A DNA stretch of 38,494 nt from a virus, in the IMG/VR virus record IMGVR_UViG_3300005253_000243, positions 1-38,494 of that record, one strand, 5' to 3'. A model generated the notes under the pieces. The model saw only the letters and a list, made by a program, of their open reading frames with translations, searched no databases and was not told the origin of the DNA. Every line of letters begins with the position of its first letter. The first letter of the stretch is position 1. Both the position numbers and the translations under genes were made by a program. Below are positions 1 through 22,632 of the stretch, one piece after another.

Positions 1-2
1 AG

Positions 3-1211
3 TCATGACCGTGCCTGCCTCATTTGCGCTTTGACTTGTTTCAGTGTCTCGTCGTCTAAGCCTGCGAACAGAATGTCACGGTCTATTTCATGCTTTGATA
101 CGCCTTTCGCTCGTGACTTGCTCGCGAAAATGATTTTCCGAGTCGAAACGATGTGTCTAATTCCAAGCTCGTTTACGGCCGCGCGTAGCTGGTGAACTCG
201 CTGCACAATGTCTTTTGGGCCGAGTCGCTTTTCCAGTGTTACATCGTAGTCAATAAATACCTTGACTAAACGATCCATTGCCGCGCCGTCCTGTTTGAAC
301 CGGCCGACATAATCAGCGGTAGCGCCTTGGCCCCAAGTGTTGAGGGTACATATCGCGGTGTAGCTTGCATGCTTCTCAACTTGCCCGCAAGGGAACGTAA
401 AGAAGGGCTGGTCGTCGGTCATGGCATTGTAAGCCACGATAGCTTCCGGGGAACTGGCGTCGTACTCATCGAACAGGTGAATACCGCCAGTCGTAAATGC
501 CACGTATGCTGGCGTCTCATGGTACTTTCCGCCCGCATCAATGAACCCGATTAAGTCATACTTAGACATGAGCGCGCCGTTCACGTAAAGTTTACGGTCT
601 AATTTTTTCGCCACTTGTGCAGCTAGAAAAGACTTGCCGGTTCCGGCCGGGCCGACTAGCGCCACGTTCAGACCAGCTTCGATGTACTTGCATACTGTCT
701 CGAACATCGGATGCATAATTATCTCGTCTTCGTCTAACGGCCGATATTCTTCTTCTTCTTCCTTCTGCTTCTGTTCTGCCGCTTCCTTCTCTTCTTTTTC
801 TCGAGCGCGAGCGTAGACGCCGCTCTCTTCGTCAGATTGCTGCGGCTGTCCTTTCGCTTCGGCATCGGCATCGGCATCGGCATCCGCGCGTTCGTCTTGT
901 GCCTGCGCCGCCTGCTCGCCAATGTCGTCTCGCTGTTCCACGTTGGCCGGTTCGGGATTCATGTCGTCCTTCTCGTCCTGCTCTGCACCCTGGACACCGT
1001 ACGCTGGCGCAGGCTTGCCGCGCTGCTTGTCCTGCTTGTTTAGCGCGGCTTTGACGCCCAGGTCTGTAATCCACATTTCGCGTGCTGCGTTGGCGAGTGC
1101 ATCCTGTAGCTGGGCTAACGTCATAACGCGAATTGCTTTTGAGTCGTACCATGTCGAGAGTAGGCGTTTTGCTGCGCCTCGGTTTGTACTTGTCACTGCG
1201 AATGTACTCAT
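3..1211 (-). CDS. AAA+ ATPase (MoxR/CbbQ/CobS-like)
   Basis: This 402-residue protein has a C-terminal AAA+ domain with Walker A GPAGTGKS at residues 187-194 and Walker B IHLFDE at 244-249. Residues 60-165 are a charged linker with an Ala-Asp dipeptide run (DNA repeat GGCATC x4 at 861-884) and a Glu/Lys-rich stretch, probably disordered. The start at 1211 was chosen because GAGGGA lies about 8 nt upstream; a longer frame to 1289 would need a TTG. Family knowledge: phage relatives of CbbQ/CobS ATPases often pair with a vWA-domain partner and remodel proteins; a partner would lie beyond the left edge. It diverges from all the early genes. The ATPase assignment is firm; the cellular role is inference. 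Confidence 0.85.
   Translation of the reverse strand: MSTFAVTSTNRGAAKRLLSTWYDSKAIRVMTLAQLQDALANAAREMWITDLGVKAALNKQDKQRGKPAPAYGVQGAEQDEKDDMNPEPANVEQRDDIGEQAAQAQDERADADADADAEAKGQPQQSDEESGVYARAREKEEKEAAEQKQKEEEEEYRPLDEDEIIMHPMFETVCKYIEAGLNVALVGPAGTGKSFLAAQVAKKLDRKLYVNGALMSKYDLIGFIDAGGKYHETPAYVAFTTGGIHLFDEYDASSPEAIVAYNAMTDDQPFFTFPCGQVEKHASYTAICTLNTWGQGATADYVGRFKQDGAAMDRLVKVFIDYDVTLEKRLGPKDIVQRVHQLRAAVNELGIRHIVSTRKIIFASKSRAKGVSKHEIDRDILFAGLDDETLKQVKAQMRQARS
861..884. repeat. Hexanucleotide tandem repeat GGCATC x4
   Basis: Four perfect copies of GGCATC lie in the linker-coding part of the AAA+ ATPase gene. On the coding strand they give an Asp-Ala repeat. Unit gain or loss keeps the frame, so linker length could vary between isolates. 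Confidence 0.9.
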
Positions 1212-1330
1212 TAATCTATCCCTCAGTTGGTTGATGAGTCGTACTTGCTGGAATGTACACACACCCTTATAGACAGGAAAGGGTGTCAAGCCGTTTATTT
1301 TCTAAGTGCTTGAATTATGGGCGAATTTAG

Positions 1331-1359
1331 TTAGACCGCGCGTGCGGATTGCGGTCTAA
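1331..1359. repeat. Inverted repeat made of two TTAGAC hexamers
   Basis: TTAGACCGC (1331-1339) and GCGGTCTAA (1351-1359) are perfect 9-bp arms around an 11-bp centre. It could be an operator for a dimeric DNA-binding protein or an RNA hairpin. There is no T tract, so it is not a standard terminator. The arms are built from the hexamer enriched across the left of the window. Confidence 0.75.
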
Positions 1360-1406
1360 GCTGGCGATATCTGCGCGGTATTCTAGTACCGGAGTACCAG
1401 ATTAGA

Positions 1407-1428
1407 CTACTGTATATATGTACAGTAG
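1407..1428. promoter_or_regulatory. 22-bp operator-like palindrome
   Basis: Perfect arms CTACTGTA and TACAGTAG surround an AT-rich 6-bp centre (TATATG). The TACTGTATAT...ACAGTA form resembles LexA-type operators (CTGT-N8-ACAG): here CTGT at 1410-1413 and ACAG at 1422-1425 are separated by exactly 8 bp. It lies about 20 bp upstream of the -35 of the rightward promoter. LexA binding is an inference from the consensus. Confidence 0.55.
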
Positions 1429-1448
1429 TTTTGGCACGAATCTTGCAC

Positions 1449-1478
1449 TTGACTTTTTCGTGTGATCCGTGATAAACT
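1449..1478 (+). promoter_or_regulatory. Sigma70-like promoter, rightward
   Basis: The -35 TTGACT (1449-1454) and -10 TAAACT (1473-1478) are separated by 18 bp and lie about 50 bp upstream of the first rightward gene. The -10 matches consensus at 4 of 6 positions, so it is weaker than the promoters at 2393 and 7369. Confidence 0.5.
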
Positions 1479-1528
1479 AGCGTCTCTGGCAATAATGCCT
1501 ACTACGACTACGGTAAAGGTAAACCATT

Positions 1529-1882
1529 ATGAGTAACCAAGACGAAGCGGAACGAACGGATCAGGAAATAACAGGCGAGTTCAGGACACGCCGGGACCGT
1601 ATCTACACAGCTATTGGTGAGGTAGTGATACCGCCCGCCGACACACCGGAAGAACTACATCTTGAGTATTTGTGCTGCGGCGTTGCTGCTCAATTTCTCG
1701 CACTTAAGGGATCAGCCTACGCTTTCAAAATGTGTAAGCTAATTTCCGAGGATGCTTACAAGATCATCGACGAAGCACTTGAGCTTACCGAAGCGGCTTT
1801 CCGTAAATCGGTACAGGAAGAATACGCACGGGTACAGGAGCCGGATCAGTCTGCTGATTCTGAGTCCCCGACTGTGCATTAA
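1529..1882 (+). CDS. Hypothetical early protein, 117 aa
   Basis: First gene of the rightward block. The product is acidic, starts MSNQDEAERTDQEI and has a helical-looking middle followed by a disordered acidic tail ending SESPTVH. A purine-rich AAAGGTAAA precedes the ATG. No family recognised. First position behind an early promoter is typical of phage host-takeover proteins, but nothing in the sequence shows that role. Confidence 0.7.
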   Translation: MSNQDEAERTDQEITGEFRTRRDRIYTAIGEVVIPPADTPEELHLEYLCCGVAAQFLALKGSAYAFKMCKLISEDAYKIIDEALELTEAAFRKSVQEEYARVQEPDQSADSESPTVH

Positions 1883-1883
1883 C

Positions 1884-2300
1884 GTGGGTATCCACACACA
1901 ACCGAACAGACGGCCGGTGCATCCTGAGTGCCCGGCCCGACGTTCGTTTGGCGACTTTAAGCCCTGCTGTTGCGACGAATTGTGGGCCGAGTGGGACGGC
2001 ACCTATGCCGAGCTGTTAGACAGGGCGGAAGCTGCGCGCAAACGCGAGCTGCGACGGACCCCTCCTGCTGCACGAGGGCACGGTATAGACAGCGACGAAC
2101 ATGCTGAGGTCGCGCCCGAGGATTTTGAGAGAACATTTAACGAAGACATTCCCCCCTTATGGAGTGAGCGGCGATTTTTAGACCAGCATGCCGGGCCATG
2201 TATTATCCGCGATCCAGGCGACCCTGAGTTACAAGAGTCGTTAGACAGACTGCGAAAATACATAGTGGATAACCACTACTGGGACCATGAAGAAGAGTAG
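1884..2300 (+). CDS. Hypothetical Cys-rich acidic protein, about 138 aa
   Basis: The frame is open from 1752, but the likely start is the GTG at 1884, one base after the preceding stop; an earlier start would lie inside the upstream gene. The N-terminal third has HPEC, then PCCCDELW, a possible metal-binding cluster, followed by a charged helical part. A hairpin terminator lies just downstream. Function unknown; the start is uncertain because no strong ribosome site is visible. Confidence 0.55.
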   Translation: MGIHTQPNRRPVHPECPARRSFGDFKPCCCDELWAEWDGTYAELLDRAEAARKRELRRTPPAARGHGIDSDEHAEVAPEDFERTFNEDIPPLWSERRFLDQHAGPCIIRDPGDPELQESLDRLRKYIVDNHYWDHEEE

Positions 2301-2327
2301 TTGCAAGCGAAACTATCGCGCAGAATA

Positions 2328-2354
2328 GGGCTGCTATGCTTTCCATAGCAGCCC
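2328..2354 (+). terminator. Hairpin terminator after the first early genes
   Basis: GGGCTGCTATG (2328-2338) and CATAGCAGCCC (2344-2354) form a perfect 11-bp stem with a 5-nt loop. No long U tract follows (TAAATC), so it may be a weak terminator or an mRNA end stabiliser. It insulates the first two genes from the promoter at 2393. Confidence 0.7.
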
Positions 2355-2392
2355 TAAATCTGTCTAAATATCAGGGACTTACGTTAGACAGC

Positions 2393-2421
2393 TTGACAGA
2401 CTTGGGTTTATCGGCTATACT
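2393..2421 (+). promoter_or_regulatory. Strong sigma70 promoter, rightward
   Basis: Consensus TTGACA (2393-2398), a 17-bp spacer and TATACT (2416-2421). GTCTAA (2362-2367) and TTAGAC (2384-2389) face each other just upstream, the second ending 3 bp before the -35. The stretch from ATCGGCTATACT through AGAGAGGAA is nearly the same as at the promoter at 7369, so this is a reused promoter-leader unit. It probably drives the primase-helicase operon. Confidence 0.85.
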
Positions 2422-2455
2422 GAAAGTATGAAGAGAGGAAATAGAAATAGACGGA

Positions 2456-2725
2456 ATGAGAAACAGGTTGACAACTAGACAGAAGTATGTTATACGCGCG
2501 CGCAGGTACTTACATAAGTACTTTAGTACGTTAGGTACTTACATATATACTTACCTTACCCTAGTAAGTAAGTATATACTAAAGTTACTTAAGGTACTTT
2601 TCATTTGTTCTTTAGTTATCTACTTTCTACCACTCGCACTGGTAACAGTTATTTTCCGGCTGCTGATCCTACCGGGCATCCGAAAAATACTTAAGTGTAA
2701 ACACGACAGGAGTACTACGGCATGA
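2456..2725 (+). CDS. Small basic membrane protein, 89 aa
   Basis: The basic N-terminus (RQKYVIRARRYLHKYF) is followed by a Tyr/Leu-rich stretch and a hydrophobic segment at about residues 47-72, then a basic tail. AGAGAGGAA lies about 15 nt upstream of the ATG. The stop overlaps the next start as ATGA. The coding sequence is unusually AT-rich and carries repeated TACTT/AAGTA palindromes, so the DNA may have a second role. No family recognised. Confidence 0.6.
   Translation: MRNRLTTRQKYVIRARRYLHKYFSTLGTYIYTYLTLVSKYILKLLKVLFICSLVIYFLPLALVTVIFRLLILPGIRKILKCKHDRSTTA
2504..2600. repeat. AT-rich palindrome cluster, possible origin
   Basis: This stretch holds two near-identical copies of GGTACTTACATA-NN-TACTT (from about 2504 and 2534), a GTACTT-ACAT-AAGTAC palindrome, and 11-bp inverted arms TATATACTTAC (2544-2554) and GTAAGTATATA (2568-2578). 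AT content is well above the flanks. It lies between a strong promoter and the primase and helicase genes, where phage origins are often found. Function is inferred. Confidence 0.5.
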
Positions 2726-3255
2726 AAAAGACAGTATCCGACCCGGCACGCGCCAGCTTAACAACTGAGCAGAAAGGTGCCCTTGATCAAATGCGCGCCG
2801 ATATACACAAGATGCACGACGGCCGCAACTCTCCAATGGAGACGCTGGTGTCTATTTATAGAAACGGCCCTCCGGGGCTTGCAGGTGCGATAGATCAGGC
2901 GGCTATGGAAGTGATGATGGTCGAGCTACCAAAGATTTCCCTCGTTGCAGAGAACGGTATCGAAATGAATCGTGAGAAAGAATACCAGCCAGTCGAAGAA
3001 CTTTTTGTCGCTGGTATGGTCTACGCAAAGAAGCAGGGTATCAACGTGGAGCAGGTGTTGACTGCTACTGTGCGGGATGCAGCGTTGCAGATAGCCGCAC
3101 TAATAGACAAGTCGGTTAGGCGCATACTTCTCGAAGACACGGTAATGAACCGGCACGCATACCTCGACATTATCAGCACTCATGCGAAGATGGTAAGAGG
3201 GCTGCAAGGTCTAACCGAGGGCGTTCCGGCGCGAGCGGATGCAAAATCTAATTAA
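2722..3255 (+). CDS. Hypothetical protein, 177 aa
   Basis: Soluble, mostly helical-looking protein with no recognised domain. It overlaps the upstream gene by ATGA and the next small gene by 17 nt, so it belongs to the primase-helicase operon. The C-terminal tail (GVPARADAKSN) is short and charged. Confidence 0.75.
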   Translation: MKKTVSDPARASLTTEQKGALDQMRADIHKMHDGRNSPMETLVSIYRNGPPGLAGAIDQAAMEVMMVELPKISLVAENGIEMNREKEYQPVEELFVAGMVYAKKQGINVEQVLTATVRDAALQIAALIDKSVRRILLEDTVMNRHAYLDIISTHAKMVRGLQGLTEGVPARADAKSN

Positions 3256-3394
3256 ACAGCTTGCGGAGTCGTACCCCGACTGGCGACGCTACCACAAGAC
3301 GCCTATGGAGGCGGCAGTCGAGATTGGTCTGTTAGACGAAGACGATCTGGCTGTCGAGGAAATGGGCGGGGAGTTGAATTTCAATGACGACTGA
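3239..3394 (+). CDS. Small acidic protein, 51 aa
   Basis: Short open frame starting MQNLIKQLAESYPDW and ending GGELNFNDD. It overlaps the upstream gene by 17 nt and the primase start by 11 nt, filling the gap between them exactly. It has an acidic second half. Its place directly before primase suggests co-expression with the replisome; function unknown. Confidence 0.6.
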   Translation: MQNLIKQLAESYPDWRRYHKTPMEAAVEIGLLDEDDLAVEEMGGELNFNDD

Positions 3395-4187
3395 AGTAAT
3401 TCTATTAGACCAGTTGCCGGCCTACATTCGTGAGCGGATAGAGACTGGCGACCCCGGTAAAATGCGGTGCCCTCGGTGTGACGGTGGACGCTCGGACGAG
3501 CTGTCCCTGTCCGTCTTCGGGGTGGGAGTCGGAGTCGTACGTCTAAAGTGCTGGCGCGCCTCATGTGGCTGGTATGCGACTACGATGACTGATCCCGATG
3601 CGAGGATGTCGCACAAGATAATTAGACCGGCTATGGTCTATCGTGAGCCTATCGAACCCGTAGCAGGGCGCATTATGGCGCGGCTTGAGTGGCAGTACAA
3701 TCTAAAGCAGACCGTATGGAAAGGACATAGCTGGGGAACTACAGGCGACATACTTGTAATGCCGGTACTCTGTCCCTATGGCGGCGTGAGAGGGCACGTA
3801 ACGCGTACGTTCAACACCTCTAAGCGGTGCATGACGTACAAGAATACGGCGCAGCCGTGGCTAGATAACTGGTCGGCCGGCGCAGAGAATAAGCCACTGG
3901 TCATTGTGGAAGACACGCTTTCAGCCTGCCGCCTGGCTGGGCTTGGCTACCCCGCGGTAGCCCTGCTTGGCACCTTCATCAGTGTGCCCCAGGCGCAAGA
4001 GATAGCGGAAGTATCGCGGGGTGTAGACTGTTTTCTGGCGCTGGACGCCGACGCTTTCGTCAAGGCTACGCGTCTCGCTATGCGCCACGCACATATCGTA
4101 ACTATGCAATGCGTGTGTCTAACCGAAGACATTAAGAATATGAAAGACGACGACGATATTCACAAACTTTTTGGAGTGAAGCCGTGA
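3384..4187 (+). CDS. DNA primase (zinc ribbon + TOPRIM)
   Basis: Synthesises RNA primers for lagging-strand replication. The N-terminal zinc ribbon has Cys29, Cys32, Cys56 and Cys61. The TOPRIM fold has IVEDTLSA with catalytic Glu176 and LDADA with Asp221 and Asp223 as metal ligands. At 267 residues it matches a T7 gp4-type primase half without the helicase domain; the helicase is a separate gene about 320 bp downstream. It overlaps the next gene by GTGA. Its recognition sequence is unknown and is relevant to the enriched TTAGAC/GTCTAA motif (T7 primase reads GTC). Confidence 0.9.
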   Translation: MTTEVILLDQLPAYIRERIETGDPGKMRCPRCDGGRSDELSLSVFGVGVGVVRLKCWRASCGWYATTMTDPDARMSHKIIRPAMVYREPIEPVAGRIMARLEWQYNLKQTVWKGHSWGTTGDILVMPVLCPYGGVRGHVTRTFNTSKRCMTYKNTAQPWLDNWSAGAENKPLVIVEDTLSACRLAGLGYPAVALLGTFISVPQAQEIAEVSRGVDCFLALDADAFVKATRLAMRHAHIVTMQCVCLTEDIKNMKDDDDIHKLFGVKP

Positions 4188-4417
4188 AATTTTTAAGACG
4201 ATTACTACCGTGGCGGCTGTCTAAACATCAGACCATCACACTGATTACCATTCTGGGCTATGTCCTGTCTCGGGAAGGGCTAGGCGGCGACGCTCGGCAC
4301 AAGGCAATGACGGACGACATGAACGCAGTTTTGCGGTCGTTGTATAATGACCTTATCAAGAATGATCCGAACTTTGCGCACATGCCGAGAGCGGAGTTTA
4401 CCGACGATGAATCGTAA
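4184..4417 (+). CDS. Hypothetical protein, 77 aa
   Basis: It starts at a GTG overlapping the primase stop as GTGA. The N-terminus is basic with a moderately hydrophobic stretch (ITLITILGYVL, about residues 18-28); the rest is charged. Possibly membrane-associated. It lies in the primase-helicase operon; no family recognised. Confidence 0.65.
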   Translation: MKFLRRLLPWRLSKHQTITLITILGYVLSREGLGGDARHKAMTDDMNAVLRSLYNDLIKNDPNFAHMPRAEFTDDES

Positions 4418-4502
4418 GGACGTAATACTTGCGTTTACTACTATCGTAGGCTTGGCCTTCATTTCGGGGTACTTGTTTGCGACTATTATAGCGGGGCTAT
4501 GA
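4407..4502 (+). CDS. Tiny membrane protein, 31 aa
   Basis: A 31-codon frame starting MNRKDVILAF and ending TIIAGL, almost all one transmembrane helix after a charged N-terminus. It starts inside the end of the previous gene and stops one base before the helicase GTG. The hydrophobic helix after a positive start and the exact fit between neighbours support it as real. Function unknown. Confidence 0.5.
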   Translation: MNRKDVILAFTTIVGLAFISGYLFATIIAGL

Positions 4503-4503
4503 C

Positions 4504-5703
4504 GTGGACGATCTAAAACTTTGCTCCGCTATATGCGGCGAACGGAGGGCGTATGACAGTCTTAAAAGAGTTGGTCTGGATTCGTCGGACTTCACAGAGG
4601 CGGGACGTTGCATTGTGGAGTCGGCTGGTGAGCAATATAGACGGGATGCTGACCTTGCAGCAATTGACAGAGACGTACTACGTCTTCAAGTTGAAAGGCG
4701 CTTCGGTGTGGGAAGCATGGCGACTTCTGTTATGGATTTTGTGGGTAGCTTCCCCCTTGACGTGTCGCAAATCAACGTCGTTGAAGAGTATCGACTACTG
4801 CGTCTCGGACGCTGCGCTACCTCACTGGCGACTCTGCTTGCGACCGGGCAGCACGGTGAAGAGACAGCCGCGTTGCTGGTTCGGTATGGACGTCTTGTCG
4901 CCGGAGAGGAAGGCGAGAAATTCAAGGCCCGTCTAACAGAGGAAGACTTTGAAGAGGATGATTCGGCGAGGATACCACTGTCGCCGAGTTGTCTAAACGA
5001 GTACATCGGGGGCGGTGTGCTACGCGGCCATAATATTGTTGTTTATGGCAGGCCGGACAGCGGTAAATCTCTGTTCGCGCTGAACCTAGCCGCCGGACTT
5101 TGCAAGCAAGGCTACCGCGTGTTATATGTAGGTAACGAAGAGCCAGCGCAGGACATTACGATGCGCCTACTGTCACGGCTGACAGGGTGTAAGCTTAAGC
5201 GCCTACGCTTTACAGACGTACGCAGCGAGGCGTTTAAGCGGTGCCGCGAAGCGTACAAGAATTGGACACTACTACACCGGGCCGGATGCACGCCCCGCGA
5301 CATTGCACGGCAATGCGCCCGTCTAAAGCCGGACGTGGTGATAGTGGATCAGTTGAAAAACTTGTCCACGAAGGATGACAACCGGGCGCTGCAATTAGAC
5401 AGCCTTGCCCGCGCCGTCCGTGAAATCGGAATACAGTACAACTGTGTTACGGTGTCGATCACGCAGGCCGGAGAGTCTGCCGAGGGCAAGCTCCGCCTGT
5501 CTATGACAGATGTCGAGTGGTCTAACACGGGCATACCAGGGGCAGCCGACCTAATGGTCGGGATCGGAATAGATGACGAGTACCTCATTGCGAACAAGCG
5601 CATGCTGTCTATTCCAAAGAACAAGGTCAACGGAGCGCACGGGGCGTTCCCGGTTTGGGTACAGCCCCAAATCACAGCTTTCAAATCGAGGGCAAACGTA
5701 TGA
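4504..5703 (+). CDS. Replicative DNA helicase (DnaB/gp4-like)
   Basis: RecA-fold hexameric helicase that unwinds DNA ahead of the polymerase. The N-terminal half (about 1-150) resembles a DnaB N-terminal helical domain. The motor has Walker A GRPDSGKS at 182-189 and Walker B VVIVDQL at 278-284. The 399-residue length fits a phage DnaB-like protein. The start is a GTG because the nearest ATG is out of frame. The stop overlaps the next gene by ATGA. Confidence 0.9.
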   Translation: MDDLKLCSAICGERRAYDSLKRVGLDSSDFTEAGRCIVESAGEQYRRDADLAAIDRDVLRLQVERRFGVGSMATSVMDFVGSFPLDVSQINVVEEYRLLRLGRCATSLATLLATGQHGEETAALLVRYGRLVAGEEGEKFKARLTEEDFEEDDSARIPLSPSCLNEYIGGGVLRGHNIVVYGRPDSGKSLFALNLAAGLCKQGYRVLYVGNEEPAQDITMRLLSRLTGCKLKRLRFTDVRSEAFKRCREAYKNWTLLHRAGCTPRDIARQCARLKPDVVIVDQLKNLSTKDDNRALQLDSLARAVREIGIQYNCVTVSITQAGESAEGKLRLSMTDVEWSNTGIPGAADLMVGIGIDDEYLIANKRMLSIPKNKVNGAHGAFPVWVQPQITAFKSRANV

Positions 5704-6050
5704 ATGACAAAGAACTAGCAGATAAGGTTGTGGCGCTTGGGGCTGGGTATAAGCTCAAGGCAGACAGTGAACAGTATTGTGTGTTTGCTGATTGCGAATG
5801 GTGCGACACCGTTCCCGCCTCAGAATTAGTCCTAGACTGGCGGGTAGCCGGTGCTTTGATGGAGAAGACGATCAAGGACGATAGGATAGATTTGCGTTGT
5901 GTCTCTGGGTCTTGGATGCCGTGTCTAGAACGATTCGATGCGTGTGTGGCTAGCTCTGCTACACCGACCTATGGTGTCTATCTGGATCGGTCAAGCGAAT
6001 CACTCCCTCGAGCAATCATAGAGGCTTGTGTTGAGGTATTAGACTTATGA
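5700..6050 (+). CDS. Hypothetical phage protein, 116 aa
   Basis: The start at 5700 overlaps the helicase stop as ATGA. The N-terminus MNDKELADKVVALG and the internal DWRVAGALMEK resemble small phage proteins loosely called ABA-sandwich proteins; this is a recollected similarity. No catalytic motif is visible. It overlaps the sulfotransferase by 4 nt. Confidence 0.65.
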   Translation: MNDKELADKVVALGAGYKLKADSEQYCVFADCEWCDTVPASELVLDWRVAGALMEKTIKDDRIDLRCVSGSWMPCLERFDACVASSATPTYGVYLDRSSESLPRAIIEACVEVLDL

Positions 6051-6622
6051 AGTACATTCACGTCCCGAAGTGGAACCTTGCGATAGCCATGACGCCGAAG
6101 TGCGGCAGCACGTCTATCTACCAAGCTATTCACGACGAGTTCAACTGCACTGACGACCATTGCACTGATCGGTTTGAGAACCTGTCTACAGGGCAGGTGC
6201 CTGCCTTCCTGCCGGTGTTGTTTGTTGTGCGGCACCCGGTTGACCGCTTCCTAAGTATATGGCGGCACCGCACACTACCGATGTACGTGAGTGCGTCCGG
6301 CAAGACGCTGCTCGGCCTGACGCCGAAGCAGTTATGGGACGGGCGGGACAAGGGCGACGATCACTGGAAGTCGCAAACCAGCCTATTAGGCGGGTTGCGC
6401 GAGCAGGCTACTATCGTGCGCCTCGAAGACTTGTCTACCTACTGGCGGCACATGACACCGAGTAAGGTAGACCTGCCGCACTTAAACTGGACAGCGTCGG
6501 AATGGCCTGTGGAATTAGACCGCAAGTTCGTAGGCAAGATCGAGACGTACTACGCGGACGATATTGAAATGTACAACGGAGCAGTAAAATGGTTAAGTAT
6601 GCACCCCCAGCTATTGAAGTAA
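6047..6622 (+). CDS. Sulfotransferase-like protein
   Basis: PAPS-dependent sulfotransferases move a sulfuryl group onto hydroxyls or amines of sugars, peptides or lipids. The 5'-phosphosulfate loop is PKCGSTS at 17-23, and the 3'-phosphate site is VVRHPVDRFLS at 60-70 with Arg62 and Ser70. At 191 residues it is compact but covers the fold. It sits in the replication operon, ATGA-coupled upstream, so it is an early gene. The acceptor is unknown; host surface glycans or a small metabolite are possible. Confidence 0.85.
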   Translation: MKYIHVPKWNLAIAMTPKCGSTSIYQAIHDEFNCTDDHCTDRFENLSTGQVPAFLPVLFVVRHPVDRFLSIWRHRTLPMYVSASGKTLLGLTPKQLWDGRDKGDDHWKSQTSLLGGLREQATIVRLEDLSTYWRHMTPSKVDLPHLNWTASEWPVELDRKFVGKIETYYADDIEMYNGAVKWLSMHPQLLK

Positions 6623-6882
6623 ACGAAGACGGCGTAATAACTGATAAGTCGCAGGACGCCGGCTGGCTACGTGCCCGCTACTTTGAGGCCAGCGCTAGAA
6701 TCGAAGAACTAGAGAAGGGCGTCTGCCGGATCATCTGCCGGACAGCTAAAGAAAATTGGATCGTCGGGTACGAGACGGCAGCGCTTATAGACGCGCCGGG
6801 CCTGAGTGCGCGAGGATTGCGAAAGGAAGCAGAACATGAATATAATGATTGGAAAAGGCGACAACCGAAGGCCAATGGATAG
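6589..6882 (+). CDS. Hypothetical protein, 97 aa
   Basis: It begins inside the last 34 nt of the sulfotransferase gene. It is a charged protein with one Cys pair (GVCRIICR) and no recognised domain. It overlaps the next gene by about 47 nt. Coding context supports it as real; function unknown. Confidence 0.6.
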   Translation: MVKYAPPAIEVNEDGVITDKSQDAGWLRARYFEASARIEELEKGVCRIICRTAKENWIVGYETAALIDAPGLSARGLRKEAEHEYNDWKRRQPKANG

Positions 6883-7024
6883 ACAGCGTACTACTAAGGC
6901 GTGGTTCGACACCGAATACGACCGCATCTTCTACGAGGGGAGGCGGCTTGAACAGGCTGACGAGGTAGTCGCGGCTACCGCAGACGAAACACTTGAGGAG
7001 ATTGAGAATGTTAAAGCTAAGTGA
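6836..7024 (+). CDS. Hypothetical acidic protein, 62 aa
   Basis: The chosen ATG has GGAAG about 8 nt upstream; an upstream in-frame start is less likely. The C-terminal half is acidic and helical (EQADEVVAATADETLEEIEN). No family recognised. It overlaps the next gene by 17 nt. Confidence 0.6.
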   Translation: MNIMIGKGDNRRPMDRQRTTKAWFDTEYDRIFYEGRRLEQADEVVAATADETLEEIENVKAK

Positions 7025-13185: not shown

Positions 13186-13188
13186 GCT

Positions 13189-15887: not shown

Positions 15888-16369
15888 TGACAACGATTGT
15901 CGCCGATAAACGAGAGCGTTGCATGATGGCTGATAACCAGTCTACCCTGTACCAGAATATAGCTGTGCCGACGCAGAAGATTTGGCGAATAGGCGACGGC
16001 CCTAACGAGGGGACGTTAGTCGGCACGAGCGGAGCGTCCGGCCCATGTCTTGTATTCATAGAATGGTTTAGGACACACGCCGAACATGACTTCAAAGAGT
16101 GCTTTGACGACAACCAGTTTATGCAGATTGAAGAGGAAGAGGACTTTATCTGCGTGCTGCTCACACCAGACAACAAGATACAGATAGTTGACCGCTTCTT
16201 TATTCCCGAGGACGTACCTCTTACGTATTACTCGGTAGGAAGCGGTTCTAAAATCGCGCTCGGCGCGATGGACTTTGGCGCGTCTGCCACGGAAGCGTTA
16301 GATATAGCATGTAAGCGCTGTGTCTACACGTCTAAAATGGGACGCCCATATCAGAGGATGGAATTATGA
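15887..16369 (+). CDS. HslV-like Ntn hydrolase (proteasome-subunit fold)
   Basis: 160 residues starting MTTIVADKRERCMMADNQST, where Thr2 after Met removal would be the N-terminal nucleophile, as in HslV and proteasome beta subunits. KIWRIGD, TLVGTSGASG and YSVGSGSKIALGAMDFGASATEA match the HslV core, including the GSGS turn. No HslU-type ATPase is adjacent, although an AAA+ ATPase of another class lies at 3-1211. It starts at TAATG after paralogue 1. It may be a self-compartmentalised peptidase or a degraded-activity relative. Confidence 0.8.
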   Translation: MTTIVADKRERCMMADNQSTLYQNIAVPTQKIWRIGDGPNEGTLVGTSGASGPCLVFIEWFRTHAEHDFKECFDDNQFMQIEEEEDFICVLLTPDNKIQIVDRFFIPEDVPLTYYSVGSGSKIALGAMDFGASATEALDIACKRCVYTSKMGRPYQRMEL

Positions 16370-16797
16370 ACGTCCGACTAATTCGAGAGATAGCACAAAC
16401 CATCGTCATACTCGTGGTGTGCGTCGGGATAGTGATGCTCATTATAGGGGGCTGTGCGAGCTTCCCGTCGCTGTCACACGACCAGTGTAACGCGACCCTG
16501 TACGAGACGGCTATGGAGCATGAGCAATGCTTACTAGCAGCGACGAAGCATGAAGAGCGCCTTGAGCGCAGGGCCGAGCAGCGAGACAAACTAATCATGT
16601 TCCTTAACGCCTGTGATGCCGCTAACGGTCTTATACTCTTGGAAGTCATAAAGTATGGCAGTAGCAACCTGCCAAGGAGCAACGAAAAGCGCATCGCAAT
16701 GCGAGAGTATGGATACAAGTACACCCACGATAATGTCGGCAAGGATGCCCGCATCAACGACTTCCGGTGTATTAGGGACTTAAGGCGAATATTCTGA
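16366..16797 (+). CDS. Putative lipoprotein / membrane protein, 143 aa
   Basis: A charged N-terminus is followed by a hydrophobic stretch at about 11-28 and IIGGC with Cys30, an acceptable lipobox. The rest is soluble, Cys-containing and charged. An early lipoprotein could block superinfection at the envelope, but the sequence does not show this. Overlaps the HslV-like gene by ATGA. Confidence 0.65.
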   Translation: MNVRLIREIAQTIVILVVCVGIVMLIIGGCASFPSLSHDQCNATLYETAMEHEQCLLAATKHEERLERRAEQRDKLIMFLNACDAANGLILLEVIKYGSSNLPRSNEKRIAMREYGYKYTHDNVGKDARINDFRCIRDLRRIF

Positions 16798-16798
16798 T

Positions 16799-17350
16799 AT
16801 GAGTGTTAAGGGACACAGGCGGGTGGTCAGAATGCCTCCATCTTTTCTAACCAGGGTTCACGACGTAGCGCTCAAGCGCCTGATGGCAAGGCTGCCTCTT
16901 TCTGTGCGTAAGGAGTGGCAGGGCGAGGCGAAGCAGGGCGAAACTGCTCACGACTGCACTAAGCTTGAACTTATACTTACGCATAAATGCGGATACAGCA
17001 CGGCACATAAGAAAGTGTTTCTGAACGGGTCGGTGCGCGACGCCGACGCGGGGACCGCAGGTAAAGCACTCGCCAACGCGATTTACAGGGACATAAACAA
17101 GCACAAGTGTTCCGGGCGTACCTCAGTACCGCACTTGAAGATAGTAAAGCCGTGGCTCTGCCCGATTTGCGGTGTAACAGATGAAAAGTATCCCGAATGG
17201 GAGGGAGAATGTAATCATGCTCGAGTCGATGATAGTAGCAAAGCTAAGAGTAAGAATAGAAGAGCTAGAGCAAGAATTGGGGGCCGCAAAGGCCCAGCAA
17301 AAGCTAGACGAGAGGCTGTGGCAACGGCTCGTCGGGGAGAGCCCGGATGA
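16799..17350 (+). CDS. Zinc-finger protein with Lys/Arg-rich tail
   Basis: 183 residues: basic N-terminus, a middle domain with HKC and HKCSG, then WLCPICGVTDEK...GECNH at about 118-140, a possible Cys2-CysHis zinc site. The tail after 140 is Arg/Lys/Ala-rich and shares its DNA with another frame (17217-17375). The stop TGA overlaps an ATG at 17347 as ATGA. Probably nucleic-acid-binding; no family recognised. Confidence 0.6.
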   Translation: MSVKGHRRVVRMPPSFLTRVHDVALKRLMARLPLSVRKEWQGEAKQGETAHDCTKLELILTHKCGYSTAHKKVFLNGSVRDADAGTAGKALANAIYRDINKHKCSGRTSVPHLKIVKPWLCPICGVTDEKYPEWEGECNHARVDDSSKAKSKNRRARARIGGRKGPAKARREAVATARRGEPG

Positions 17351-17375
17351 GACGCCGAGCAGCGCTGATGAGTGA
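17217..17375 (+). CDS. Small coiled-coil protein in overlapping frame, 52 aa
   Basis: Frame MLESMIVAKLRVRIEELEQELG... forms clear leucine/isoleucine heptads, with an acidic end. GGGAGGGAGAA lies about 9 nt upstream. It overlaps the preceding gene by 134 nt in another frame and the next by 8 nt. Small coiled-coil proteins of this kind are common in phages. It may be the functional frame of the two. Confidence 0.5.
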   Translation: MLESMIVAKLRVRIEELEQELGAAKAQQKLDERLWQRLVGESPDETPSSADE

Positions 17376-17931
17376 CTTCGTTGTTCGCTACGCGGTCATA
17401 GAGGCGACCGCTGTCACACACAGGCTAGTGCGCAACCCGAATTACTCGGGGCACTTGTGCGCTGTGCCTAACTGTCGTGTGGTGCCTGTCGTGGAGCGTG
17501 CTATGAAGCCGAAGTTTTTTGAAGCACTCAAGAAAGATGTAGCTGAGAGGGGATTTCGTAACCCAATACTTGTCTACAACACGCCGGAATTCGGCTTGTT
17601 GTTGGATTTTGGCGGCTCTCGTCTAAGGGTAGCCAAGCAGTTACACATAGGTGTCCCGGCCATTATTGTTGACTATACTATTAAGTACACCTGGGCACCG
17701 AGAGTCACGCCGGAGAACTGGCAGTCATTCTTTACGGATGTGCCAGAGCAGTTCGAGTTCATTGATATAGGTATCGACACGCATTACAGTATCGAACGTA
17801 ACCGACGAGAGACGTTCGACCCGGCGGGAATCGTATGGTTCCCAGAAGACGAGGATTTTGTAGCCGAGGAGTTTCCTTGGCTTAACGACGTAAGCCTGAA
17901 GCATGGCTGCGAGGTGAGGAAAAGAAAATGA
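17368..17931 (+). CDS. ParB-like domain protein
   Basis: About 187 residues. Residues about 50-100 (KKDVAERGFRNPILVYNTPE, then GGSRLRVAKQLHIGVPAIIVDY) match the ParB/sulfiredoxin fold, in which GxxR binds nucleotide. The rest is unique. An alternative ATG at 17347 would add 7 residues and couple to the upstream stop. Phage ParB-like proteins can be nucleases or CTP/ATP-binding; which applies is unknown. Confidence 0.7.
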   Translation: MSDFVVRYAVIEATAVTHRLVRNPNYSGHLCAVPNCRVVPVVERAMKPKFFEALKKDVAERGFRNPILVYNTPEFGLLLDFGGSRLRVAKQLHIGVPAIIVDYTIKYTWAPRVTPENWQSFFTDVPEQFEFIDIGIDTHYSIERNRRETFDPAGIVWFPEDEDFVAEEFPWLNDVSLKHGCEVRKRK

Positions 17932-18113
17932 TTTGGAAATTAGTTTTACTGACGTGGCTCGGGAGTGTACCTAAAATGGTACAAGATGTACCTGTCGATG
18001 ATCTACGAGACTGTAACAGGCAGATTGCTCACTATGAGCAAGAGTGGGTAGACGCACCTAAAGAGTTCGTCGCTGTCATGTACTGCGCGCAGGGCAAGAT
18101 TCATTATGATTAA
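17928..18113 (+). CDS. Small exported or membrane-anchored protein, 61 aa
   Basis: The N-terminal hydrophobic stretch (IWKLVLLTWLGSVP) could be a signal or anchor. The rest is polar, with two Cys (DCNRQI, MYCAQG) that could form a disulfide in the periplasm. ATGA overlap upstream and 8-nt overlap downstream. Function unknown. Confidence 0.55.
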   Translation: MIWKLVLLTWLGSVPKMVQDVPVDDLRDCNRQIAHYEQEWVDAPKEFVAVMYCAQGKIHYD

Positions 18114-18951
18114 TGTAACCGTACACATGCACATCAAGGACAACACGCCTGCTAACGCTCGGCTCTTGGCCCTATACTATGGCCTGAAGCATCAGAGCAA
18201 CGCGCGTGTCACTAAGATGCTGCGCACAGAAATAGACAGGGGCGCGGACTTGATTATCGTCAAGGGGCTGAGTGCGTCACTCCCCCTGCGCTACGCTGTA
18301 GACGAGGGGATACCCTTCATCATATTGGAAGACCCGTACTGGCGTCCCAACAAAGAGTACACACTGTCGCACACGTCTTGGGGATACAACGGTATGTGTG
18401 GCCGGGCATGGTATCCGACCACGCCCTTTGCGTCGCGGCCTAAGCCGCCTTTGCAGCCCTTCAAGACTGAGGGTGACGTAATCATCTTCGGACAGAAGCC
18501 TGACGATTACTCGCTGCGTGGACAAGATCATGTGCAATGGATAGAAGACAAGATGAAACAGTGGCCTAACGCAGAGCTGCGGCACCACCCGCTTATGCTG
18601 TCTAACAAGCCACCAGATGAGAGTATTGATGACTGTCTAAAGCGGTGCTACCGAGCGGTAACATTTAGCTCGACTGTGGGTGCCGAGGCTTTAATTGCAG
18701 GCTGTCTAAGCAGCCCGGAATGTCCCGGCAGCACAGCGTACGGTGTCCACGACCGTGAGGCGTGGTTACATAACCTGTCGTGGAGACAGTTCAGTAATAA
18801 CGAGCTGACCGGCACCCCTGCGGTCAAGTTCATACTCAGTGGCTACGACGAGGCACGCTGGCGTGCGAGTGAGGGCATGATCGAGCATCCCCGAGATAAG
18901 GTCAACAGGGACGTAAATATTCGCAGGTATCAAGAGAGGTTTGGAGTATGA
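18106..18951 (+). CDS. Glycosyltransferase-like protein (paralogue 2)
   Basis: 281 residues, homologous along most of its length to the 15051 protein, with shared IPFIIL, IIFGQKP, AVTFSS, ECPG and DREAWLHNLSWRQF landmarks. The AVTFSSTVGAEALIAG stretch resembles the donor-side loop of GT-B or capsule-type transferases. It lacks the insert that carries the 65-bp repeat in paralogue 1. It is coupled to a methyltransferase gene, which suggests a shared modification pathway. Family placement is tentative. Confidence 0.55.
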   Translation: MINVTVHMHIKDNTPANARLLALYYGLKHQSNARVTKMLRTEIDRGADLIIVKGLSASLPLRYAVDEGIPFIILEDPYWRPNKEYTLSHTSWGYNGMCGRAWYPTTPFASRPKPPLQPFKTEGDVIIFGQKPDDYSLRGQDHVQWIEDKMKQWPNAELRHHPLMLSNKPPDESIDDCLKRCYRAVTFSSTVGAEALIAGCLSSPECPGSTAYGVHDREAWLHNLSWRQFSNNELTGTPAVKFILSGYDEARWRASEGMIEHPRDKVNRDVNIRRYQERFGV

Positions 18952-19541
18952 GCATCACGAGAGAGTACCAAGCAGAATTGCGAAAACAGCATGAGGAGCG
19001 CGGCCATTGGGGTTCGTCTGCCGTACGCTACGGCGCAGGAGACGACATCACAGTCATACTTAACAAGAAAATATACCGTGGCATTAAAACTGTGCTAGAT
19101 TACGGCTGCGGGCAGGGCACGCTCGGAGACTTTATTCGAGAGAACGCGCCGGGGCGTGTAAAGTGGTTCGAGTATGATCCGGGTATTCCCGGCAAGGATG
19201 TGAAGCCCGAGGGACAGTTTGACCTCGTACTGACGACTGACGTACTAGAACACGTTGAGCCGCACCTGTTAGACGAGACCATAGCAGAGTTAGCGAGTCT
19301 GACTAGGCTGGTCATGTATAATAACATACCCAACACTCCCGCAGGTAGTGACTTCATTACTGGGCCGTATGTCGGACAGAACTTACACCTTATAGTAGAG
19401 TCTCCTGAGTGGTGGCACGAGAAGATCAACGGAATCGTATTTCCAAAGTTTGTGCGAGCGGAGTTCCGCACTATTATTAGACACGGCGGCTGCGGCGACA
19501 AAACTCGTTGTATGTTCGTCCACGAGAGGGTAAGGAAATGA
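18948..19541 (+). CDS. SAM-dependent methyltransferase (class I)
   Basis: 197 residues with motif I VLDYGCGQGTLGD (about 48-60), an acidic motif II region (KWFEYDPGIP) and FDLVLTTDVLEHVEP (about 91-105). No DPPY or PCQ motif, so it is not a typical DNA methylase; the layout is closer to Methyltransf_23-type enzymes acting on small molecules, sugars or lipids. Coupled by ATGA to paralogue 2. Substrate unknown. Confidence 0.85.
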   Translation: MSITREYQAELRKQHEERGHWGSSAVRYGAGDDITVILNKKIYRGIKTVLDYGCGQGTLGDFIRENAPGRVKWFEYDPGIPGKDVKPEGQFDLVLTTDVLEHVEPHLLDETIAELASLTRLVMYNNIPNTPAGSDFITGPYVGQNLHLIVESPEWWHEKINGIVFPKFVRAEFRTIIRHGGCGDKTRCMFVHERVRK

Positions 19542-19699
19542 ACAAGAATCCGATCAGTGAGACGGAGCGCCAACATTTGCGCGCAGAACACCGGGCGAGA
19601 GTTGCGCGGTGTACCGAGGACTTGCAGGTGCGCTATGCAGCGCAGAAGATAGTCGATCTTGCACGACAACAGGCAGAAGAGGAGTATTTCAATGAGTAA
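19538..19699 (+). CDS. Small helical protein, 53 aa
   Basis: GAGGGTAAGGA precedes the ATG, which overlaps the methyltransferase stop as ATGA. The product is a charged single long helix (SETERQHLRAEHRARVARC...AEEEYFNE). It overlaps the next gene by 8 nt. Function unknown. Confidence 0.6.
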   Translation: MNKNPISETERQHLRAEHRARVARCTEDLQVRYAAQKIVDLARQQAEEEYFNE

Positions 19700-20315
19700 G
19701 CATCTAATGATAGACATTGAGACGCTGTCTACGCGGTCTAACGCTGCGATAGTGTCTATCGGTGCGTGTATGTTCAACCCGGAGCTTGAGTACGACGAGT
19801 GGCCTTGCGCGGGAATGTTGGACTCGTTCATCGTGGGTGTCAACCCAGACTATTATTACACAGGGCGCTTCCATGTAGACCCGAAGATAGAGGCATGGTG
19901 GAAGAGGCAGAGCAAGGAAGCGAGAGCCGGACTCAAGATCAACATGGCTTCGACGCTGCCCCTGGCAATGGACAAGTTCACAACTTGGGTCGAGGAGCAG
20001 GGTTTCGTGAAGACTTCGTCGCCGTGGAAAGAGGACTCGGGACGAGTGTGGGCTAACCCCCCGCAGTTCGATCTAGTCATCCTGCGTGACGCTGCGCAGC
20101 ACACGTACGGCAGCTATGACGACGTGCCGTGGCACTATCGTCAAGAGACGTGTTGCAGGACGCACTCGTATCTAAACAGGAAGCACGCACAAGTAGCGCG
20201 TGCGTTCCCACCTCTTATAGACGGGCTAGTTGCTCACAGAGCAGACCATGACGCCATTAGACAGGCGCGTATGGTACAGCTCATAAATAGACAGGCAGCC
20301 GAGCTGCTAATATGA
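19692..20315 (+). CDS. DexA/Rv2179c-like 3'-5' exonuclease
   Basis: 207 residues. HLMIDIETLSTRSNAAIVSIGA supplies the DxE motif of the DEDD superfamily; VWANPPQFDLVILRDA and HDAIRQARMV supply the later acidic motifs, and PWHYRQETCCRTH is typical of the Rv2179c/T4 DexA group. It is the second stand-alone DEDD exonuclease in the window. Likely degrades single-stranded nucleic acid or RNA. Confidence 0.85.
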   Translation: MSKHLMIDIETLSTRSNAAIVSIGACMFNPELEYDEWPCAGMLDSFIVGVNPDYYYTGRFHVDPKIEAWWKRQSKEARAGLKINMASTLPLAMDKFTTWVEEQGFVKTSSPWKEDSGRVWANPPQFDLVILRDAAQHTYGSYDDVPWHYRQETCCRTHSYLNRKHAQVARAFPPLIDGLVAHRADHDAIRQARMVQLINRQAAELLI

Positions 20316-20470
20316 TTGATGAAGGCAAACCGTGGGTGTCTAGCAGCGGGAAGTATTCCGGTAGAATTATGGGAGTGCCGCCCCGCGTGACAATACTGTT
20401 AGACACAACGGCAAAAGCACGCCTCGCGCGGGAGAACGTGCTTAGGATGCAACGGAATGATGTTAAGTAG
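20312..20470 (+). CDS. Small basic protein, 52 aa
   Basis: Frame MIDEGKPWVSSSGK...RMQRNDVK starts in an ATGA overlap with the exonuclease and overlaps the next gene by 14 nt. It is basic with a helical C-terminal half. No family recognised. Confidence 0.5.
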   Translation: MIDEGKPWVSSSGKYSGRIMGVPPRVTILLDTTAKARLARENVLRMQRNDVK

Positions 20471-20714
20471 GGAGGAAGTATCGAAGAAACTTGGCCGCCG
20501 GGTTAGCCGGGGCGAGTATGAGAGAGTAATGGATGCCCATTTGCGTAAGCGATTCATGGTCGCTGTAACGTCTACCAGCAGAGGGAGGCATACAGGAGAG
20601 AGGAGGGTGGTAGAAACCCTGTCTCCGAAGAGTCCCAAGAGCCAGAGGAAGGGCAAACATGCCGCCTGTGAGGGACAAGTAGGGAAGGGCAAGAGGGCCA
20701 GATATAATGGCTGA
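20457..20714 (+). CDS. Basic protein, 85 aa
   Basis: The start is at 20457 or 20460. The N-terminal half (REEVSKKLGRRVSRGEYERVMDAHL) looks like a helix-turn-helix or helical DNA-binding segment; the second half is a disordered Lys/Arg/Ser-rich tail. Could bind nucleic acid; no family recognised. Confidence 0.5.
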   Translation: MMLSREEVSKKLGRRVSRGEYERVMDAHLRKRFMVAVTSTSRGRHTGERRVVETLSPKSPKSQRKGKHAACEGQVGKGKRARYNG

Positions 20715-20740
20715 GCCAGCGAAGGGCAAAAGAGCTAGGC

Positions 20741-20938
20741 GTGAATAAACGTACGGCTGAGCCTGATGAGAGGAGGACCACGTCAAGAGTCTTGCGCGAG
20801 CAAATAAGCTCGGGGAGTGCGACATGTATACCGGGGGTGTGCGACAGGGATTACTGTCGGCACTCCCCGGATTGTCCGTGGAAAAAAGCAATCAACGAAA
20901 TCTATAGAATAGGAAGGGAGTTAGATGATGAAGAATGA
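20741..20938 (+). CDS. Cys-rich small protein, 65 aa
   Basis: Probable GTG start at 20741, with later starts possible. Residues about 29-46 (CIPGVCDRDYCRHSPDCPW) hold four Cys and one His in a spacing that could bind zinc or form disulfides. It overlaps the next gene by 14 nt. Function unknown. Confidence 0.5.
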   Translation: MNKRTAEPDERRTTSRVLREQISSGSATCIPGVCDRDYCRHSPDCPWKKAINEIYRIGRELDDEE

Positions 20939-21290
20939 ACTAGAGACGTTTAGACAAATGATACAGAAACAAGCCTTTGCCGAAGACAATGACCAGTATT
21001 GCGGTATTCTGTCGTTCTGTATAACACCGGACGGTAAGGTGATTCAGTATGCTCGGCTGATAGGCGAGGATGTACTCCTCGAAGCCCCTGAAAAAGTACT
21101 ACAGTTCTTAGGAGACGACATGATGCACAACTTTCAGACGAAGCTACGCGCGCTTCCAGATACTAAGGCCGAGTCCGGCGAGGATGGTGGCCTCAAGCAG
21201 AAAGCCGATGTCAACGCCAACGTCACCGAGAGCCTTGATAGCGGTGCCGATTCCGGTGAGGACTTGTGGGTATCCGAGGGCGGTAGCTAA
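20925..21290 (+). CDS. Last rightward gene, 121 aa, antisense overlap
   Basis: The first ~80 residues look folded (GILSFCITPDGKVIQYARLIGED). The last ~40 are acidic low-complexity (ESGEDGGLKQKADVNANV...DLWVSEGGS) and lie antisense to the end of the holin-like gene at 21144-21545. That tail may be a by-product of reading through the opposite gene. No terminator separates the converging operons. Function unknown. Confidence 0.6.
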   Translation: MMKNELETFRQMIQKQAFAEDNDQYCGILSFCITPDGKVIQYARLIGEDVLLEAPEKVLQFLGDDMMHNFQTKLRALPDTKAESGEDGGLKQKADVNANVTESLDSGADSGEDLWVSEGGS

Positions 21291-21545
21291 GCCCCCCACA
21301 ACAATGATGTTGAGGATGCTAACGACTGAGACGGTAACGTACTCGTCCTTCCATGTGTGCTGCATCCCAGCGACGTTCAGGGCTTCCCACTCGTCCTTGT
21401 TTAAGTTGATGGCCTGGGTATCGTCTTGTGCGCTCTGCGAGAGCTTAGCGACAGCCTGCTCTTTGAGCTGCTTGCGCTCTTGATGCTTGTTTATGATCGA
21501 AGCTACCGGCTTGAAGAGTCCGGTCACTATGCTTGCGATACTCAT
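21144..21545 (-). CDS. Holin-like membrane protein, 133 aa
   Basis: The N-terminus is an amphipathic, charged helical part (KPVASIINKHQERKQLKEQ), followed by two transmembrane segments at about 71-90 and 108-128. The layout resembles phage 3TM-type holins or small internal membrane proteins. It is the last gene of the leftward late operon and overlaps the final rightward gene by 147 bp tail-to-tail. Confidence 0.6.
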   Translation of the reverse strand: MSIASIVTGLFKPVASIINKHQERKQLKEQAVAKLSQSAQDDTQAINLNKDEWEALNVAGMQHTWKDEYVTVSVVSILNIIVVGGLATALGYPQVLTGIGTAIKALGDVGVDIGFLLEATILAGLGLSIWKRA

Positions 21546-21763
21546 TAGAGTAACCCCTCAAATAATTCAAAGTGAACGGGTAGCCACGCCAACAGGGCGA
21601 GCATCCCGTAACGAAATAGACGGCTACGTGCTACGAGTCGTCTAACGTAATGGCTGAGTGTGAAATCACCCTCGGCCTTTTTGTCGTCTAAAATAGCCTT
21701 CCCCTCGGTAACGACGAAGCCAACTACCCAGAGTATCCAAGCCCATGCGTATGCGTCTCGCAT
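21545..21763 (-). CDS. Small membrane protein, 72 aa
   Basis: Two hydrophobic segments (about 4-20 and 52-70) separated by a charged loop (KAILDDKKAEGDFTLSHYVRR). It lies between holin-like genes and is coupled to both neighbours. It could be a holin or antiholin; no family recognised. Confidence 0.6.
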   Translation of the reverse strand: MRDAYAWAWILWVVGFVVTEGKAILDDKKAEGDFTLSHYVRRLVARSRLFRYGMLALLAWLPVHFELFEGLL

Positions 21764-21936
21764 TAGTCACGCTCCTCACATATCCAGATAATTTTCCCAG
21801 GGGGCGCGGGCACGCTGTCTACAACGGCCTGCCCAATTTCAGCGCAGTCAGCAAAAGTGTCAAACGTGGGAATCTCTCCTACGTCTAACGGGCTATAGAC
21901 CCCGCCCAAGAAAATGAAGAAGACCAGATTAAACAT
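21763..21936 (-). CDS. Small exported or membrane protein, 57 aa
   Basis: Start chosen at MFNLVFFIFLGGVYS, with GGAAG about 13 nt upstream; a TTG 13 codons earlier is also open. The hydrophobic N-terminus could be a signal or anchor. The rest is short, with Cys pairs (DCAEIG, WICEER). Part of the lysis cassette; function unknown. Confidence 0.5.
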   Translation of the reverse strand: MFNLVFFIFLGGVYSPLDVGEIPTFDTFADCAEIGQAVVDSVPAPPGKIIWICEERD

Positions 21937-22138
21937 CGGCTCGTCGCTTCCGTCTAATTTCTCGGATGCACTCAATCTTGTACCACCCTGCGACCAGCGT
22001 CACGATGATGACGGCTGCCGTGGCTGCGATCTGTAGTATGGGTGCCACTTCTACGACCCACGTTGCTCCCGCAAGCACACCGCTGCCGGTGATGCCTGTG
22101 TTAGCCTGCGCCTGCGTTATCTGTTCTTGGATTTCCAT
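21929..22138 (-). CDS. Holin-like protein, 69 aa
   Basis: A hydrophobic region at about 18-52 (possibly two helices) followed by a strongly basic tail (REIRRKRRADV) is a common small-holin layout. It directly follows the exported HExxH gene in the transcript. Probably the pore-former that releases or activates the endolysin; experimental role unknown. Confidence 0.6.
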   Translation of the reverse strand: MEIQEQITQAQANTGITGSGVLAGATWVVEVAPILQIAATAAVIIVTLVAGWYKIECIREIRRKRRADV

Positions 22139-22632
22139 TAGTGGGACATTCCTGTGTTAGATTTCTTCGGGTTGCATTTGTACAGCTCTCGCCACACTTT
22201 CACAGTGCGCACGAACGTAGGCTTGTTTAACTCGCGTGCATACTCGTTGACAAAGTCCAAAGCCTCGCGCTCCATTATGCACGTCATAAACCTATCGAAA
22301 CCGTTTGCGTCCACGGTGTTACCTACTTGCAAGTAGTGAACCTGCTCGTGGAATATCGTCAGCCATAGCTGCGTACCTTTCAAGTCTCGGTCTAACCACA
22401 CGACCGTAGAATTAGACCAGTACGCTCCTCGTGCGTCGTTGTCGCCAACGACAGGTGAGCGTCTAACCCGGGGTGCTGGTCTAACGCAGTCATACTTGCT
22501 GATGCGGCAGGCAGCCTTATACGTGATGCGTGCTATACGCTGGTCGGTTGCATAGCGGTCTGGCACGTCATTAACAGGGGCCGCCGTGAGGGAAGCCGCC
22601 GCAAGGAAGGCAATCAGGAACCGCGCTCTCAT
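22138..22632 (-). CDS. Exported HExxH zinc metalloprotease-like protein
   Basis: 164 residues with a clear signal peptide (ARFLIAFLAAASLTAA, cleavage near 18-20). The zinc site is HEQVH at 95-99, with downstream MEREALDF, where Glu121 or Glu123 could be the third ligand. Several Cys would suit the periplasm. It overlaps the end of the endolysin gene by 62 bp and precedes the holin-like gene, so it is expressed in the lysis cassette. Substrate unknown; envelope proteins are plausible. Confidence 0.75.
   Translation of the reverse strand: MRARFLIAFLAAASLTAAPVNDVPDRYATDQRIARITYKAACRISKYDCVRPAPRVRRSPVVGDNDARGAYWSNSTVVWLDRDLKGTQLWLTIFHEQVHYLQVGNTVDANGFDRFMTCIMEREALDFVNEYARELNKPTFVRTVKVWRELYKCNPKKSNTGMSH

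Follow-up and report, generated by a model that had tools for sequence, protein, structure and literature searches.

A short word concentrated among the replication genes

The subject of this analysis is the hexamer TTAGAC (GTCTAA on the opposite strand) in a stretch of phage DNA, here called the window, which is the whole of the linear IMG/VR record IMGVR_UViG_3300005253_000243 (38,494 bp). The left part of the window carries replication genes on the plus strand, among them a stand-alone T7-type DNA primase with zinc-binding and TOPRIM parts (3384..4187, PHROG 47), a DnaB-like replicative helicase (4504..5703) and a PolA-type DNA polymerase (7916..9817). In the right part the minus strand encodes the late genes, namely endolysin, major capsid, portal (35702..37714) and, at the contig end, a terminase (37714-38484) which is without its N-terminal part, full-length relatives having 441-450 amino acids, so that the genome is incomplete on the right. 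By PolA the closest isolates, at about 36% identity, are Stenotrophomonas phage StenR_269 and Vibrio phages including VpV262 (Zobellviridae).

An exact count gave 79 copies in the window (41 TTAGAC and 38 GTCTAA) against 17.7 expected from a dinucleotide model, with 71 at or left of 22,479, 8 at 25,155-30,616 and none in the last 7.9 kb (binomial p 1.4e-9 for the left/right split); these counts agree with those made by hand in an initial annotation of the sequence. The 71 left-hand sites (37 plus, 34 minus) form an array at 54..22484 that spans the early module and continues into the neighbouring lysis genes of the minus strand, while the remaining 8 (25155..30621) lie in the late module. When all hexamers of the left 22,632 bp were scored against Markov models TTAGAC was the most over-represented (71 versus 9.8-10.5, z 18.7-19.6 for order-0 to order-2 models) and it still ranked first under an order-3 model (z 9.8). 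The early module holds 1 to 5 sites per kilobase within and between genes, and on the left 63 sites are coding and 8 noncoding, counting a small gene at about 1884-2300. Sites occur on both strands, and their positions bear out the earlier statement that copies lie in every permitted reading phase, in intergenic DNA and in the minus-strand lysis genes.

Codon usage does not account for these numbers. With synonymous codons shuffled within each gene, the early genes hold 60 copies where 13.0 +/- 3.1 are expected (z 15.3) and the late genes 8 where 4.6 are expected, which is near chance and not significant (z 1.7); the gene set shuffled omitted the gene at about 1884-2300, which adds three in-frame TTA GAC sites. 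Leu-Asp pairs are spelled TTA GAC in 27/50 cases on the left and 3/28 on the right (p 2e-4), and codon preference does not forbid sites in the right part because TTA codons are used there at a similar rate. Relative to transcription both sense (37, 5.1-fold) and antisense (23, 4.0-fold) copies are enriched in the early genes of the window, and the sense/antisense folds in the three genomes compared are 5.1/4.0, 6.7/5.1 and 6.5/6.6. Enrichment in both orientations excludes a purely RNA-level signal, just as the shuffles exclude codon and dipeptide bias, and the initial view that the copies are due neither to codon bias nor to strand therefore holds. TTAGAC is thus shown to be selected at the DNA level irrespective of strand, reading frame and direction of transcription.

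The core of the site is TAGAC. In the window T is the best first base, with A and G tolerated and C not, ATAGAC (29) and GTAGAC (28) being 2-3 times over expectation in the left part and CTAGAC not. The base after the word is T in only 2 of the 79 copies and the next position prefers a purine. This flank preference (G before, V then R after) recurs in the coding phases and in noncoding DNA, and the consensus (G)TTAGAC(V)(R) does not depend on reading frame; we represent the TTAGAC site by the duplex sequence GTTAGACAG.

Relatives, site turnover and genomic setting

Searches with one protein at a time (PolA, DnaB or the AAA protein) returned no relatives; relatives of the early region were found using two-sequence alignments of PolA and DnaB as queries. 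Two contigs stand out, L065 (PolA 69% and DnaB 67% identical) with 59 copies against 6.2 expected in 15.4 kb and L066 (DnaB 66% identical) with 33 against 2.3 in 6 kb, and TTAGAC is the rank 1 hexamer in both. A syntenic 41-kb relative, G001, shows weaker enrichment (36 versus 11.7 in coding sequence, z 6.9), and phages with more distant PolA or DnaB, including VpV262 and StenR_269, show none. In 25 related portal genes TTAGAC again tops all hexamers (63 versus 14.0, z 12.9, the runner-up reaching z 6.9), these counts not being independent because the portals are related. The portal genes of 20 relatives hold 60 sites against 11.0 expected, whereas the window's own portal has none; the capsid gene of 11 relatives has 0 sites, though only 1.1 are expected. 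The enrichment in related genomes that the initial annotation had set as a check is found, and the confinement to the early module that was first described is true of the window contig and not of the clade. The word is real, under strong selection and characteristic of the clade; it is most frequent in early genes, where the window and its uncultured relatives carry it about once in 200 to 300 bp, and the late module of the window holds unusually few copies.

Codon alignments of the primase, DnaB, PolA and SSB-like genes show that individual sites are kept. Ten of 15 window sites (67%) are intact in L065 as compared with 13% of all hexamers, a 5-fold difference, and 5 of 14 are intact in L066 as compared with 8%. 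Four of the five sites in the DnaB gene and five of the six in the PolA gene are among those shared with L065, one of the latter being present in all four genomes compared. Two sites are intact in all four, and other sites are lineage-specific gains; the pattern is one of maintenance plus turnover, with sites kept and regained in relatives.

Pooled over strands the sites are spaced slightly more evenly than random (mean coefficient of variation 0.83, p 0.02; window, L065 and L066). In binned counts evenness was seen with 1-kb bins in the window (p 0.02) and 500-bp bins in L065 (p 0.003) and was not significant at other widths, and because its significance depends on bin width we regard it as weak evidence. 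Strands are balanced, with no orientation bias near the left genome end, and strand labels are random or mildly clustered. Within a strand, neighbouring sites of the window are on average some 600-680 bp apart and those of L065 some 400 bp, in both cases less evenly spaced than under random strand labels, and we found no consistent preferred distance or pairing between sites. Site-rich noncoding stretches occur at the late/early junction of L065 (3.5-4.45 kb), L017 (1-260) and L011 (388-660), which by analogy with the layout of VpV262 may be near the genome end. Over 4.6 kb L065 and L008 are 99.8-100% identical, and jointly they tie the site-rich junction region to terminase and portal. Transfer RNA genes separate the late operon from the site-rich noncoding region in L065 (3207-3400; Met, Gly) and L011 (2283-2531; Thr, Met), and the window has no such genes.

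At the left end of the window a CobS-type AAA ATPase (3-1289, minus strand, family match) is followed by an intergenic stretch (1290..1528) preceding the first rightward gene, in which direct reading of the sequence places three sites (1331, 1354 and 1402). The two at 1331-1359 are arranged as an inverted repeat, TTAGACCGC-N11-GCGGTCTAA, with a sigma-70-like promoter sequence downstream, and could possibly act as an RNA hairpin or an operator. The small plus-strand gene at about 1884-2300, whose in-frame TTA GAC sites are at 2016, 2178 and 2241, has a homologous open reading frame in L065 at 7335-7883, and two opposed sites lie in the intergenic DNA downstream of it (2362..2389). Other plus-strand genes of the early module with family matches are a 5'-3' exonuclease (10951-11838), a RusA-like protein (12760-13185) and a DNA polymerase exonuclease-subunit-like protein (about 14248-15054). 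A ParB-like protein (17347..17931, plus strand) rests on a weak match to PHROG 3264 (E 1e-3) and is a possible DNA-binding candidate, and a methyltransferase at 18948-19541 matches Methyltransf_23. The gene at 13434-14045 has a match just below the cutoff to PF18909 (dATP/dGTP diphosphohydrolase N-terminal), a domain presumably associated with altered-nucleotide pools in some phages.

Other words were also noted. In a more distant phage, L074, GTCTA is the top pentamer (38 versus 17.3, z 4.8) and CTAGAC is favoured over TTAGAC. An unrelated 43-kb genome, G007 (L064, IMGVR_UViG_3300006224_000017), whose PolA is only 22% identical to that of the window and in which tblastn detected no T7-type primase, carries a dispersed and strand-symmetric GGGCAG (45 forward and 43 reverse, 88 in all, against none for the reversed-letter control). 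Its wider consensus is TTNGGGCAG, and over the 21 kb tested the synonymous shuffle gives z 10; the case suggests the use of different words by other phages. In L081 (2512-8677) a 12-bp tandem repeat, ATCAGGTCAGGG, forms several arrays, which were rejected as a comparable case, being ordinary tandem arrays. CCWGG is absent from G001 (0 versus about 64 expected), L065, L008, L004, L005, L017, L011 and L090 and reduced in the window (24 versus 61), a pattern of strong avoidance of a Dcm/EcoRII-type site. The GTMKAC (AccI-type) set of GTAGAC, GTATAC and GTCGAC is at zero in L065, L008, L004, L005, L003 and L012, and in L011 GTAGAC is enriched (23 versus 3.7); restriction avoidance may thus shape the first base taken by the TAGAC word. 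Six-base palindromes stand at 0.45 (left) and 0.36 (right) of expectation in the window, T7 being similar at 0.46.

Candidate readers of the word

Selection strong enough to reshape codon choice across the replication genes implies that some protein reads the word constantly, and it is almost certain that TTAGAC is read by a protein. The best-supported reading, which we put forward tentatively as somewhat less than an even chance, is that TTAGAC, a non-palindromic site, is recognised by a protein which binds double-stranded DNA sequence-specifically and is active in either orientation. Such a protein, most likely phage-encoded and made early, would occupy the sites as a distributed array and in doing so could coat, organise or silence the early DNA. 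We favour an orientation-indifferent protein reading the duplex because the arrangement of the sites fits it, and count in its support the shuffle z of 15.3, the enrichment in both orientations, the frame-independent flanks, the top rank among hexamers in L065, L066 and the 25 portal genes, the retention of sites, the random or mildly clustered strand labels with their slightly even pooled spacing, and the junction stretches. Several observations weigh on the other side. Ten proteins scanned against Pfam together with the ParB-like protein showed no convincing site-specific DNA-binding domain, and the predicted structure of the latter is too poor to use (predicted local distance difference test score, pLDDT, 34). 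The evenness signal is weak and dependent on bin width, the bare late module of the window contrasts with the site-rich portal genes of its relatives, and the reader could possibly be host-encoded. It is a further and more doubtful step to suppose that these lytic phages, as a clade, mark their genomes every 200 to 300 bp with a short sequence of their own for a phage-encoded, orientation-indifferent reader, as a distributed self-recognition or genome-coating code. Such a code is not described for lytic phages. Literature searches on the word, on over-represented hexamers in phage early regions and on primase sites in phage genomes found nothing.

The main rival, which we consider unlikely though still the strongest of the alternatives, is that the sites are starts of the phage's own T7-type primase, which would read the single-stranded template 5'-(Y)(B)GTCTAA(C)-3' and make primers beginning AC; as the site has six bases and not three, the genome would have to be enriched to provide a start every few hundred bases on each strand. 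The phage does have a stand-alone primase with conserved cysteines and of the zinc-binding TOPRIM type, as PHROG 47 and the fold match indicate, whose AlphaFold model (pLDDT 91) finds its best PDB fold match in the T7 primase fragment 1nui (E 4e-7). T7 primase reads 5'-GTC-3', which the word contains, and in a plant relative the element recognised is longer and includes two cryptic bases (PMC10557236). The sites also have a suitable density on each strand, the late genes of relatives contain the word as well, and since the base after AC is almost never T the primer would be without U at position 3. However, a six-base requirement is without precedent among known primases, the spacing within each strand is uneven in both the window and L065, and general GTC-type enrichment was looked for in phages with homologous primases and not found. 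In the T7 control the known sites are only about 1.4-fold enriched and inseparable from other pentamers. The control with SP6 does not fit. The 16-kb late module also needs replication yet has only 8 sites, and this near-bare region leaves the genome as a whole short of usable primase-site coverage on each strand. A host-encoded reader, such as a recombination, uptake or nucleoid factor whose preferred word the phage accumulates, seems to us less probable again. The word is confined to the clade, and more distant relatives that share the replication genes lack it, as would be expected if the clade had a host group in common; its indifference to strand and gene resembles that of uptake sequences (PMC1939737). 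Against this, portal and PolA searches of 84,980 species gave no host, sites near the genome end show none of the orientation bias that a Chi-like signal would be expected to have, and enrichment by a host should affect early and late genes alike.

Two further explanations fare worse. That the word is a DNA modification target, as had also been proposed, we regard as very improbable. A non-palindromic hexamer with A in fifth position does have the form of one-strand methylation motifs, as in BREX and type III/IIG systems. Phages avoid such targets and do not gather them, and this clade avoids many restriction-like words; no DNA methyltransferase was recognised among the genes examined, some open reading frames of the incomplete contig lying outside the scans. 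The only enzyme there of methyltransferase type is the Methyltransf_23 match, and PADLOC gave no defence match among the ten proteins scanned, so that a target of phage-made modification is without support. Nothing directly supports an uptake or packaging mark either. The sharp shift in density at the early/late boundary could point to an artefact of composition, codon usage, repeats or assembly, an account to which we give almost no credence. Codon and amino-acid bias are excluded by the synonymous shuffles, a tandem or mobile repeat is ruled out by site flanks that are unrelated beyond about 9 bp, and an assembly chimera is ruled out by the palindrome and CCWGG avoidance common to both halves of the window. 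The order of early and late modules is the same as in G001, and the enrichment is seen again in independent contigs.

The identity of the reader would reveal one of two things, a mode of marking or organising DNA that is new for lytic phages, or a primase of unusually long specificity. Because the signal is detectable from sequence alone, the same test could be applied to all phage genomes, both to find such systems and to predict their readers.

Comparison with known systems

We do not file the word as a stoperator, an uptake sequence or a Chi site: the orientation rules of stoperators and Chi are absent here, and an uptake sequence would call for enrichment of the same word in the host genome. 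Stoperators of Cluster A mycobacteriophages are repressor sites of 13-14 bp that number 20 to 30 per genome and follow the direction of transcription (PMC9283540, PMC6550527). They resemble the present array in comprising many asymmetric sites for one protein across a phage genome, with a motif that drifts between relatives (PMC9283540, PMC6550527), and differ in that the window has a 6-bp core in 71-79 copies that are mostly intragenic and follow no orientation rule. The family scans, which left some open reading frames outside, brought up no recognisable immunity repressor and no lysogeny gene. Known primase sites (5'-GTC-3' in T7 and 5'-GCA-3' in SP6) recall the word in that it contains GTC and the phage has a T7-type primase, but they are three bases long and inconspicuous in T7, whereas here six bases are fixed and the spacing on each strand is uneven. 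DNA uptake sequences of Neisseriaceae and Pasteurellaceae are likewise short, non-palindromic, present on both strands, largely intragenic and conserved with turnover (PMC1939737), but mark the genome of a competent bacterium, whereas this word belongs to a lytic phage and is concentrated in early genes. Chi too is short, non-palindromic, frequent and intragenic, but it acts in one orientation, whereas the word in the window has no orientation bias.

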